Shown here piece after piece: positions 54,734-59,164 of a stretch of DNA of 64,000 nt. Made by a program: the position numbers and the translations under genes. Below the pieces are notes generated by a model. The model worked only from the letters and a program-made list of their open reading frames with translations, searched no databases and was not told where the DNA came from. Source of the stretch: Lachnospiraceae bacterium (lineage in GTDB: Bacteria > Bacillota > Clostridia > Lachnospirales > Lachnospiraceae); assembly GCA_022483465.1 (NCBI GenBank), contig JAKVNF010000004.1, positions 495,713-559,712 of the forward strand, read 5' to 3'. Numbering within the stretch: the first letter of the stretch is position 1; each line of letters begins with the position of its first letter.

Positions 54734-56800
54734 TTACTGCGCCATATAATCGGCAATGACATCCCACACGGAAGCCGTGTCAAACTCGAGCTTCCACTCC
54801 GCGACACCGGCGATGTCCGCCGACGTCATGACATCGAGCTTCTGCTGGATGGACTTGTCATCCTCCACCCAGATCTGAATCAGGGCGCCGTCGGAATCGG
54901 TGCGCTCCGCATAGTTCTGGCCGGTCTCAGAGTCCCAGGTCTCGGTCATGCCGTTGTTGGCGATGTAGTCCGCGATGTCCTGCATGCCATAGGCCTCCGA
55001 GGTCACCGCGCCGTTGTAGGTCTTCCAGATCCGGGAGTAGAAGGGCACCGCGTTGATGACCTTCGACTTGTCCACCTTCTCCACGGCCATCTGTATGCCA
55101 TCGGTCACGTAGCTGATGGAGGCCACGGAGCCCGCCTCCTGGCTGCCCGCGTAGTGCTCATCGTAGCCCATGATGACCACGTAGTCGACGAAGACGCCCT
55201 GCTCCTTGATGTTGTAGTAGTCGTTGAACTCGTAGGCCGGGTAGTTGTCCACCGAGAGGGTCAGGCCCGCATTGCGGCAGGCGATGGAGAGCTCCCGGAT
55301 GAACTCCACGTAGTCCTGGCCATAGCTCTTGTCAATGAGCTCGAAGTCCACGTTGATGCCGTCATACCCGTAGGTCTGCACCTGGGTCATCAGCTGGCTG
55401 ATCAGGTTGTTGCGGGAGTCCAGCGTGTGCAGGAAGGAGCTCTTGTCGGTCAGCTCCGTCGAGTTGATGTTGTCCACCACCGCGTAGACCTTGTAGCCCA
55501 GGTTATGGGCCGTGTCCACGTAGTACTGGCTCGCAAAGCTGGAGATGTCGCCCGCCTCGTCGGTCACCCAGAAGATCGTGGGCGCGATCACGTTGACGCT
55601 CTTGGTCTGGCTGGTGTCCTGGATCAGCGTGTCCTCCGCCGCCGCGGTGGAGTAGACGTTGTGGAAGGCCATGTTCACCTTCTCGCCCAGCTGGTGGGTG
55701 GTGTACTCGGGTTCGGTGTAGACGCCAGGATCCGTCTGGGTCGTCTGCGTCACATCGGAGAGGCGCTTATTCTCCATGTAGCCGATGATGCCGTCCGCCG
55801 TCGCGACCTGGCTCCACTGGTCCATCTGGTCGAGGACCGTGACCTGGTCGTCTTTTGCCACATCCGTCAGGATGTCGCTCTTGATGCCGCCGCTGGTGCG
55901 GACCTGGGTGTCCTTTGTCACCGTGGCGACGTTGATCTGGGTGGTGAAGTCGGAGGAAATCACCAGCCGGGTCGGGTTGTCATAGGCGGTGAAGGAGAAG
56001 TCCGTGTACTGCTGGACAAACTGGAGGTTTAAGTACACCGTCCCGTCGTCGTCCGCCACCGCGGGGACGTAGTCCAGGGTCTCGGTGCTGTCCCCAGTCG
56101 TCACATCGCTGCTCCCCACCTGGGTCACCACCTTCTCGGTGGGCAGGCAGTAGATGATCATCCCGGTGGTGTCATCGCTGTTCTGCACGCCGTAGTAGAA
56201 GCGCCCGTTCAGGTTGGCCTGCACATCGGCGAGGGTCATGTAGTAGCCGCCGTCGATGAGCTTTGCCCGCACGTCGGAGAGGGCATTGTTCCAGGTGATC
56301 GGCACATCCGTGTCGTCGGCGACGCTGAAGTACTCATTCAAATCTGCCCGGGTCTTGGAGTAGGAGTACTTGTCCAGGTAGAGCTTGCCGCCAAAGGCCA
56401 CCAGGAGAAAGAGGATCAGCACCACGGTGATAATCATCGTGGGGTTGGTCTTCTTTTTCCGGCGGCCGGAGCTGCTGCGCTTTCTGCCAGACGAGGAGGT
56501 TCTGCCAGTACCCCCGGCACTTCTGCGGGAGCCGGAAGAGGATTTCCTGCGCTGCCTGGGCGCTTCCTCCTCTTCATAGTAGGGATCCTGCTCAGGTTCC
56601 TGCCCGTACCCGCCGTCATCGTACTCGCTGGCGTAGGGATCCTCCTCGTAGTATCCGTCGTCATATCCATACCCGTCGTCCGGGTATCCGTCCTGCGCCT
56701 GACCATTGGGATCGTAGTCCTGCTGATATCCCCCATCCCCGTAATACTGACTATTCCGGGTGTCCTCGGACCGGCCGCGGCCCGTATTTTTGTTCGCCAT
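54734..56800 (-). CDS. Membrane-anchored GH18-type glycosidase with SH3-like domain
   Basis: A 688-residue single-span protein. Residues 1-85 are Tyr/Asp/Gly/Glu-rich and acidic; residues 85-118 are Ser/Arg/Lys-rich; a membrane helix (MIITVVLILFLLVAFG) follows. Outside are a copper-amine-oxidase-like or stalk region, an SH3b-like stretch (VATVTKDTQVRTSGGIKSDI; VATADGIIGYMENKRL) and a glycoside hydrolase 18 barrel with the catalytic motif YDGINVDFELID (Asp485, Glu487). Such proteins relate to YaaH/SleL enzymes acting on peptidoglycan. It is the first gene of the run that continues to tsaC-like, rpiB, upp and dCMP deaminase. Confidence 0.9.
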   Translation of the reverse strand: MANKNTGRGRSEDTRNSQYYGDGGYQQDYDPNGQAQDGYPDDGYGYDDGYYEEDPYASEYDDGGYGQEPEQDPYYEEEEAPRQRRKSSSGSRRSAGGTGRTSSSGRKRSSSGRRKKKTNPTMIITVVLILFLLVAFGGKLYLDKYSYSKTRADLNEYFSVADDTDVPITWNNALSDVRAKLIDGGYYMTLADVQANLNGRFYYGVQNSDDTTGMIIYCLPTEKVVTQVGSSDVTTGDSTETLDYVPAVADDDGTVYLNLQFVQQYTDFSFTAYDNPTRLVISSDFTTQINVATVTKDTQVRTSGGIKSDILTDVAKDDQVTVLDQMDQWSQVATADGIIGYMENKRLSDVTQTTQTDPGVYTEPEYTTHQLGEKVNMAFHNVYSTAAAEDTLIQDTSQTKSVNVIAPTIFWVTDEAGDISSFASQYYVDTAHNLGYKVYAVVDNINSTELTDKSSFLHTLDSRNNLISQLMTQVQTYGYDGINVDFELIDKSYGQDYVEFIRELSIACRNAGLTLSVDNYPAYEFNDYYNIKEQGVFVDYVVIMGYDEHYAGSQEAGSVASISYVTDGIQMAVEKVDKSKVINAVPFYSRIWKTYNGAVTSEAYGMQDIADYIANNGMTETWDSETGQNYAERTDSDGALIQIWVEDDKSIQQKLDVMTSADIAGVAEWKLEFDTASVWDVIADYMAQ

Positions 56801-57086: not shown

Positions 57087-57597
57087 ATGTTCCGAGAGAT
57101 GAGAAGAAACCGTCAGATCCTGCCGCAGGAAATTGTGGACGCCGTGCTCCGGAGGGGAACCTCCGGCGTGCTGGCCCTCTCCGGCGACGACGGCTACCCC
57201 TACGCCGTGCCGATCAGCTACGTCTACGACGGAAAGGCCATCTACTTTCACTGCGCCAGGGCGGGGCACAAGCTCGACGCCATCCGGCGCTGCGGGAAGG
57301 CATCCTTCTGCGTCGTCGACCAGGATGAGATCGTGCCCGAGGAATTCACCACCTATTTTCGGAGCGTGCTCGCCTTCGGCAGAATGCACGAGGTCACAGA
57401 GGATGCCGAAAAGCACCAGGCGATGGAGGCGCTGTGCGAAAAGTACGCGCCGAACGAGACAAAGGACAGCCGGGACAAGGCCATCGAAAGGGAGTGGGCG
57501 CCGCTCTGCGTCCTTCGGTCCGACATCGACCACATCACAGGAAAAAGATGCCATTGAACTGGTCCGAGCAAAACAGGAAGCAAAAAAGAAGAACTGA
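57087..57597 (+). CDS. Pyridoxamine 5'-phosphate oxidase-like flavoprotein with frameshifted C-terminus
   Basis: A small FMN-binding split-barrel protein of the PNPOx-like family (GTSGVLALSGDDGYPYAVPISYVYDGKAIYFH, here summarised by GVLALSGDDGYPYAVP; later GHKLDAIRR). As written, the frame ends at 57557 (156 residues, ITGKRCH). Removing one A from the AAAAA at 57542-57546 restores DAIELVRAKQEAKKKN and a stop at 57595-57597, a family-like C-terminus. The loss affects only the last 15 or so residues, so the product may still fold. ATG 57087 was chosen for its homologue-like start. Physiological substrate is unknown. Confidence 0.8.
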
Positions 57598-57674
57598 AAA
57601 ACCGAAACAGACCGGTTCCGCCCTGCCCGGCAGGGTTTCTACATTAATACATATGACGGTAGGAGGTATTTGTC

Positions 57675-57945
57675 CCAAGCGGAACTGCACAGCGGGATTC
57701 CTGCGCACAGATTCCGCATGGGGCAAACGCCTCCCCGGGAAACAGACACGGCATCGGTCTTCAGACCGGATGGGTGGACTTGCAAAAGAAGTGAAGTAGA
57801 CGCCGCGGTGAAAGGATCGGTCGTCAGGCCGTCCCGGCATCGCGCCGAAGATGTAGGGCGAATCCAACAGGACCAGAGGGAACATTCCCGCGAGGGTTCC
57901 CCGTCAAATGGATTCTCCCGGAACCAGGAAAGAACTGCTTCATAA
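57675..57945 (+). ncRNA. Candidate structured non-coding RNA
   Basis: No convincing gene, yet the stretch is dense in perfect stems: GCGGAA/TTCCGC (57679-57684, 57712-57717) enclosing GCGGG/CCTGC; GGGG/CCCC (57720-57723, 57733-57736); GGTC/GACC plus CATC/GATG (57752-57772, TTCA loop); CGGTC/GGCCG (57818-57831); CGGC/GCCG (57835-57847); and GAATCCA/TGGATTC (57860-57866, 57909-57915) enclosing GGGAAC/GTTCCC. It is G+C-rich between A+T-richer flanks. The strand is inferred from the neighbouring gene. Size and shape bring to mind the raiA-motif RNA of Firmicutes, but I cannot confirm that class. No clear promoter or terminator was found. Confidence 0.5.
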
Positions 57946-58393
57946 ATGATAGAGAAAATGTAATTCGTGTAATTGTGACATGCAATCCGGAGGAAAGCCG
58001 CTGGGATCCGATACCAGAACGCTGCATCGTGAAGAGGCTCATCGCAGCTATTCAACTTTCCGGGGATCTGGCACACCTCCTTTCCCGCATGAGATTTTCT
58101 CAACCTGCCCGGTGCTGTGAAGTATGCACCTTACTTTGCCGCTTGAAAAGGGGCTTTGTGTTCGCCGGAAGCATTTTCGGAGTCCTGTACAATTCCGATC
58201 CCCCGTTTTTTGAGGAATCCCTATATACATTCATTGTTATCTGTCTTCCTCTATTATTTTGTCTGTCGTATTTGTCGGATTTTCTTGTTCTATATTTCGC
58301 GGATATCTGACTTTTCCCGCACTGCGGCAGGGGCTTTCATGCACTGACGGTTTGGGGTACAATCATTTCCACAAAAGAAAGGCAGGAAATCGC
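57946..58393. other. A+T-rich intergenic stretch before mecA
   Basis: About 450 bases with no supportable gene. It has short hairpins such as GGTGC/GCACC (58111-58130 region) and GAGATTTTCTC near 58091. The part from about 58190 to 58310 is markedly T-rich. The mecA promoter lies at its end. An open frame at 57975-58310 lacks a ribosome site and family resemblance. Confidence 0.6.
58335..58363 (+). promoter_or_regulatory. Putative promoter of mecA
   Basis: TTTCAT (58335-58340), 17 bases, TACAAT (58358-58363), 30 bases before the mecA ATG. Confidence 0.5.
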
Positions 58394-59164
58394 ATGGAAC
58401 TTCGCAGAAACGGAGACAATGGCATCCTGTGCCTGCTGACGCAGGATGATCTAAAACAGCGGGGCATCTCCCTCGGGGACCTCTCCTACAGCACCCTGGC
58501 GGTGCGCAAACTCTTTGTGGAGGTCCTGGAGGAGGCCCGGCAGAAGCTGGGCTTTACCGTGGAGCCCGGACAGTACAAGGCAGAAATCATCCCGATGGGG
58601 GATGGCAGCATGCAGCTGCTCTTTTCCACCGCCCTCACCCAGGACGAGATGGACTCCCGGTTTGTCAATTTCCGGCCGGCGGTCATGAAGAGCAACGACG
58701 AGGACGGCGCCCAGGAGAAGGACAGCGACATCGCCGCCGCCCTGCGCTCCCTGATGAACCTCTCCCAGGCCGCCCGCGGCAGGAATGCCGAGGGGGCGGA
58801 GTCCGATGCCGCAGGCCAGGAGACAGAGGAGACGGCGGGCCCCAGCGCGGACGCAAGGCGCAGGTTCCTGCGGCTCAACCGGATGTTCGTCTTCGAAAAC
58901 ATGGCCAAGGCCTGTGAGGCGGCCTCTGCGGTCCGGAGCTTTACGGGTACGAGCGCTCTCTACCACTCCCCGGACACCGGCACCTACCGGCTGCTTCTGA
59001 CCATGCCCGACATGGCGGCCCTCGGGGCCAACCAGAAGAGCCTCATCACCCTCTCGGAGTACGCCTCCCAGGAGGTGGTCACCCCCTCGAGACTCCAGTC
59101 CCTGCAGGAACACGGGGAGCTGGTGATCCCGGACCATGCCATCGAGAAACTCGCAGAAATCTGA
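58394..59164 (+). CDS. mecA: Adaptor protein MecA
   Basis: A 256-residue MecA/NegD-family protein. Family knowledge: MecA delivers substrates to the ClpC ATPase for degradation. It has an N-terminal domain (MELRRNGDNGILCLLTQDDLKQRGI), given here by the motif LTQDDLKQRGI, an acidic, low-complexity linker (about residues 100-155, ESDAAGQETEETAGPS), and a C-terminal ClpC-binding domain (LYHSPDTGTYRLLL; LSEYASQ). AGGAAA precedes the ATG. It is a single gene with its own promoter and terminator. Confidence 0.9.
   Translation: MELRRNGDNGILCLLTQDDLKQRGISLGDLSYSTLAVRKLFVEVLEEARQKLGFTVEPGQYKAEIIPMGDGSMQLLFSTALTQDEMDSRFVNFRPAVMKSNDEDGAQEKDSDIAAALRSLMNLSQAARGRNAEGAESDAAGQETEETAGPSADARRRFLRLNRMFVFENMAKACEAASAVRSFTGTSALYHSPDTGTYRLLLTMPDMAALGANQKSLITLSEYASQEVVTPSRLQSLQEHGELVIPDHAIEKLAEI

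Follow-up and report, generated by a model that had tools for sequence, protein, structure and literature searches.

A Probable Minus-strand Structured RNA Family between mecA and a GH18 Gene in Lachnospiraceae

Results

Lachnospiraceae is a major gut family. The window analyzed here, a 64,000-nucleotide stretch of DNA from a Lachnospiraceae bacterium, contains an intergenic interval beside mecA, and the surrounding genes are listed below in window coordinates together with the parts of the RNA that we propose for this interval.

54734..56800, minus strand: GH18 gene with an SH3 domain, the neighbor on the other side from mecA (Pfam Glyco_hydro_18)
57087-57557, plus strand: gene for a NimA-like flavoprotein of the pyridoxamine-phosphate-oxidase type, between GH18 and the RNA (Pfam Pyridox_ox_2)
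57600..58114, minus strand: predicted non-coding RNA, 5' end near 58114 and 3' end near 57600 (promoter placed by comparing RUG433 and genus loci, 3' hairpin, terminator-like site)
57603..57620, minus strand: weak terminator-like site behind the 3' hairpin (three such sites versus 1.8, S.D. 1.3, expected in shuffles)
57662..57734, minus strand: long 3' hairpin (folds; two both-sides changes relative to RUG433)
57755..57768, minus strand: small hairpin CGGTCT/AGACCG, extended by CAUC/GAUG (both-sides change in RUG433)
57856..57919, minus strand: core hairpin, outer GAATCC/GGATTC and inner GGGAAC/GTTCCC, loop with CUCGCGGGAA (UCYCACGGAA in the genus) (motif and position)
57917..57985, minus strand: presumed 3' arm of P1 in three segments, UUGCAUG (57985-57979), AUUUUCUC (57959-57952) and CCUGGUUCCGGG (57928-57917)
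58076..58081, minus strand: AGGAGG just inside P1, without a start codon behind it (coordinates, motif family, start-codon test)
58085..58112, minus strand: presumed 5' arm of the closing helix P1, including GAGAAAAU at 58101-58094 (duplex and MFE fold)
58121..58149, minus strand: weak candidate promoter TTTTCA, 17 nt, CATACT (placed by hand; 4 + 4 of 12 consensus matches)
58394..59164, plus strand: mecA, the divergent neighbor (Pfam MecA, 123.8 bits)

The NimA-like gene scores 188 bits with the NCBIfam model NimABCDEF, under the cut-off of 260, and the syntenic stretch of the sister species RUG433 has no such gene.

A preliminary description of this DNA had marked 57675..57945 as a gene-free block with at least six perfect stems and had read it as a candidate structured RNA. 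Nine pairs of inverted repeats of at least 6 nt are indeed present, but the count of stems is generous, as three of the nine (CCCGGG, TTGCAA, and CCGCGG) are mere 6-nt palindromes. The nesting of GGGAAC/GTTCCC (57878-57883/57896-57901) was described correctly; it lies inside GGGCGAATCCA/TGGATTCTCCC (57856-57866/57909-57919), arms that are 91% complementary, and would form the core hairpin of the minus-strand RNA. The absence of a credible gene is confirmed by the lists of open reading frames and by comparison with RUG433, from which the block differs by insertions and deletions of 1, 1, 1, 1, 2, 2, 2, and 4 bases, so that no reading frame is kept. The G+C content, said to be higher than in both flanks, is 0.61 at 57700-57899 and exceeds that of the adjacent intergenic DNA (0.51 in the 200 nt to the left and 0.485 in the 200 nt to the right) but not that of the neighboring genes (0.60-0.655). 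The limits given for the block were too narrow, as the long hairpin begins at 57662 and the sequence conserved in RUG433 extends to 58259.

The segment 57640-57945 folds more stably than its dinucleotide shuffles (z of -4.9 on the plus strand and -2.9 on the minus strand; 0 of 100 shuffles as stable on either), and the fold of the window alone gave a z of -3.2 for plus versus -2.1 for minus. A consensus fold of the window and RUG433 yielded -94.5 kcal/mol on the plus strand versus -90.0 kcal/mol on the minus strand, with four both-sides pair changes on each. This pair shows selection on the stems and leaves the strand undecided, plus being slightly the more stable.

When 99 relatives (G000, 60 genomes of the same genus, and 38 of the same order) were searched at the DNA level, the block matched only in G000 and RUG433. 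The alignment with RUG433 covers 57635-58259 at 71% identity, with 78% over the block versus 72% over the start of mecA. A longer DNA query matched 20 of 62 genus genomes at E 0.1 or better; in the 18 genomes besides G000 and RUG433 the matches were short, reached no better than E 0.014, and were taken as chance. Scanning the genome contigs with an 18-base motif returned at least 120 stretches, and among the matches listed a two-sequence profile recognized RUG433 (L116). Six genome matches and one viral match that were inspected look like chance similarities within genes, five matches in a viral scan were likewise set aside as chance, and the phage and plasmid collections gave no match. A plus-strand model built from the two sequences (R1) found G000 and RUG433 in the genus, plus two matches at E 0.44 and 0.77, and G000 alone across 299 family genomes.

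Models of known RNA families gave no match at the element. With Rfam 15, the window yielded two and RUG433 three chance-level matches; up to E 1, 17 loci from other genera yielded three more at chance level, none at the element, and 18 genus loci yielded none at the element. In one of the latter (L055) a Clostridiales-1 RNA (RF01699, 113.5 bits) lies beside the element, between it and mecA, at 1231-1407 on the plus strand. Membership of the raiA motif family (RF03072), which had been suggested for the block, is not borne out: the window has no match at the gathering score, and the surroundings of the block have none even at E values up to 10. Across 61 genomes the raiA model had no matches, an uninformative result as the controls were silent too. 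The 6S RNA model (RF00013) matched neither the window, the surroundings of the block, the 18 genus loci, nor the 17 other-genus loci. Among 10 genus genomes it matched in five, with a single match exceeding the cut-off, and found nothing in G000 or the four others. Because mecA is on a different contig from the 6S match in each of the five, the mecA-GH18 RNA is not the 6S RNA of these genomes.

Of 62 genus genomes, 58 have MecA (L052 was left out of the genus set), and GH18 lies divergent on the opposite side from mecA in 51 of 59 upstream stretches. The window has the same divergent arrangement, the NimA-like gene having come between. The intergenic stretches share islands that a DNA search misses, namely TTCCGTGRGA on the plus strand, which is UCYCACGGAA on the minus strand. 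The core motif YYCACGG, picked like the other motifs after the data were seen, occurs in 43 of 58 genus loci as against 9 for the reversed control and 1 for the reverse complement. L208, L209, and L216 were left out of the comparison of conserved elements between genus loci. We read GACCAGAGGGAACATTCCCGCGAGGGTTCCCC of the window as a probable form of this element, and the core hairpin element is present in the window copy by both motif and position. A conserved TTGTGATTTTCGCACAA-like element, perhaps an operator, stands upstream of mecA between the divergent promoters (e.g. L049 and L032).

In many genus loci the minus strand carries TTG-17/18-TANAAT, followed some 20-45 nt on by GTATC..GGAGG. 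The latter is found in 36 of 58 genus loci and its reverse complement in none. Promoters with at least 9 of 12 consensus matches were detected on the minus strand of 55 of 86 stretches and on the plus strand of 36, mecA's own promoter included; shuffled minus stretches gave an expectation of 16.4. The homologous promoter of RUG433, TTCACA-17-CATACT, was reported by the scan with 9 of 12 matches; TTTTCA-17-CATACT of the window was absent from the scan output. AGGAGG has a start codon behind it at 8 of 58 loci, fewer than the background of 0.30 predicts, and as AGGAGG is kept without a reading frame we read it as a putative structural or ribosome-contacting element.

A set of 100 genomes that represents each genus once and includes G000 has MecA in 97. 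Apart from G000, 96 of these genomes remain, and the loci of 68 were examined, beginning with the 30 that most resemble the query. GH18 is divergent in 21 of 28 of these loci (L222 and L249 were unparsed out of the 30). UAUCAC(G/A) or CGUCAC(G/A) occurs 100-520 nt behind the predicted start in 25 of the 68, and the reversed and reverse-complement controls gave two each. In 19 of the 30 loci an open reading frame of 70-85 amino acids lies between the RNA and GH18, for example at 829-1080 of L228 and 724-939 of L243, both on the minus strand. For two examples Pfam found nothing, and NCBIfam gave one match far below its cut-off. In four loci (L230, L236, L247, and L250) what by eye looks like a protein-kinase gene, divergent from mecA, takes the place of the RNA, with an AGGAGG-like site at equal distance.

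The pairing of the predicted 5' arm of P1 with its own partner, compared with foreign partners, was measured in the 25 other-genus loci with the core motif. Own partners averaged -20.1 kcal/mol versus -14.6 kcal/mol for foreign ones (z -8.3 on the minus strand, 0 of 10000 permutations, with L284 and L285 among the 25 pairing weakly), and the same test on the complementary strand gave a z of -5.2 (0 of 10000). The own arm was the best of all arms in eight of the 25. Here the first tens of nucleotides form a helix with the segment that precedes the core, frequently 12-20 bp long and with differing letters (for example in L246, L282, L225, and L264). Within the genus (n = 26, with the AGGAGG arm omitted because it had blurred the first own/foreign version), the z was -3.1 on minus (22/5000) and -1.1 on plus. 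At single loci, the P1 z fell below -2 in 15 of 43 genus loci and 7 of 16 others; in the window the pairing can be drawn, at a z of +1.6 that is not significant, and RUG433 gave 0.0. The core arms covary nearly equally on both strands (minus strand, z of -3.8 in the genus and -4.6 in the others; plus strand, -3.8 and -4.0). Clade A was thinned to 4 of its 12 loci in the genus P1 and core-arm tests, and a MAFFT alignment of the diverse cores was poor and was kept out of all counts. Across genomes, both the P1 arms and the core arms covary.

The 12 loci of clade A have a rod helix in which CGGAAGCAGAUGAAAC..CUGUAYCGG pairs with GGUACAGUUUCUGUGCUUCCCGG. Its structure was derived from the same nine sequences on which it was tested, and in these 93.6% of cells pair versus 39-45% in slid versions. 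Both-sides changes occur in 8 of 51 pairs versus 3.8 in shuffles, and the count of further pair types was no better than in shuffles (297/500). The structure conservation index reached 1.02 for the minus strand and 1.06 for the plus strand. A model built from the nine sequences (R2) recovered six further loci, none of them in clade A, at E < 0.001, in the same place and on the same strand. The window and RUG433 went unrecognized by it up to E 5, and 348 family genomes gave no matches in a set that held no known-matching genome and had four candidates scored per genome.

Single-locus folds were modestly stable, with a mean z of -1.7 on minus and -1.4 on plus and the minus value lower in 40 of 60 loci. 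The window copy is assigned to the RNA family because of its synteny, core element, AGGAGG position, and 3' hairpin; its minus strand and exact ends are inferred. Of the preliminary description, the structured RNA is upheld, since the sequence is conserved, its pairs show compensatory changes, and the element recurs at a single locus, but only part of the element had been seen, and the plus-strand reading gives way to comparative evidence that favors minus.

Discussion

An RNA at the mecA-GH18 locus likely exists and is probably a new family of minus-strand structured RNAs of Lachnospiraceae, a view of existence and strand that we hold mainly because of the P1 and core-arm pairing energies across the genus and other genera. 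Comparison of sequences supports a structured RNA that would be independent of the neighboring coding genes, and our best guess is a structural RNA acting in trans. The explanation that we favor by a little is a stand-alone minus-strand RNA with its own sigma-70-like promoter and a trans-acting role, of which the block would be the 3' two thirds. Such an RNA of ~0.4-0.5 kb would be transcribed divergently from mecA and towards GH18. P1 would be a long-range helix in which the first ~30 nt of the transcript pair with the segment before the core hairpin, with AGGAGG inside it in the role suggested above; the core would expose UCACGGAA in the genus or UAUAUCACG in other genera, and in the genus a long hairpin would close the 3' side. 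The RNA may act as a scaffold or RNP, possibly touching the 30S, rather than on its neighbors. It is conceivable, though we think it improbable, that the whole family is an uncatalogued RNP or ribosome-associated RNA acting in trans, whose AGGAGG contacts the 3' end of 16S rRNA and which perhaps couples the translation state to MecA-guided proteolysis.

The main rival is a cis-acting leader, a long 5' untranslated region that would control the next minus-strand gene (the small open reading frame or GH18) in the manner of a riboswitch or attenuator, and we regard it as unlikely but deserving of weight. The small frame, besides its frequency among the 30 most query-like loci, is present in 17 of the 25 core-bearing loci of other genera, and in L237 and L243 a T run stands between the core hairpin and the ribosome-binding site of the frame. 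However, the remaining eight core-bearing loci show no such frame, the 59 genus stretches contain no match to it, several genus loci have a TATAAT-like box that belongs to GH18 itself, and in the window a plus-strand gene separates the RNA from GH18. The stand-alone RNA is preferred to a leader, as a preference and not as a proof.

The slightly better plus-strand fold, both for the window and for its consensus with RUG433, would suit a functional RNA on the plus strand, but the minus strand shows the stronger P1 covariation in both genus and family, the single-locus folds tend the same way, and the order of promoter, P1 arm, and AGGAGG reads on the minus strand, all of which leaves a plus-strand RNA doubtful at best. 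Least probable is conserved regulatory DNA between divergent promoters with no functional RNA at all; the two promoters and the TTGTGATTTTCGCACAA-like element do share this interval, but sites at the DNA level leave unexplained the covariation of arms a few hundred nucleotides apart, and a wobble asymmetry favors one strand.

If the stand-alone RNA is real, a good share of the sampled genera of Lachnospiraceae have retained it next to mecA. An RNA in this place, with fast-changing letters and a covarying architecture, would escape sequence searches, and it was through synteny that it was recovered. We found no description of it in the portions of the literature covered by our search, which included parts of PMC5171806 and PMC11706538, and the term "mecA" occurs 0 times in the searched text of PMC8040213, PMC11109978, and PMC8632094.

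Among known systems, the large ornate orphan RNAs of Bacillota (OLE, ROOL, and GOLLD) resemble the candidate in kind, but the mecA-GH18 element has no Rfam match. 6S RNA shares with it a long closing rod helix at the start; in contrast, the mecA-GH18 RNA has no match to the 6S model at its locus and has extra core and 3' domains. The raiA motif (ModT RNA), an intergenic RNA of Bacillota with several stems that stands alone according to PMC11706538, is in these respects like the RNA proposed here, whereas the mecA-GH18 RNA lacks a match to its model, is about twice as long, and has different neighbors.
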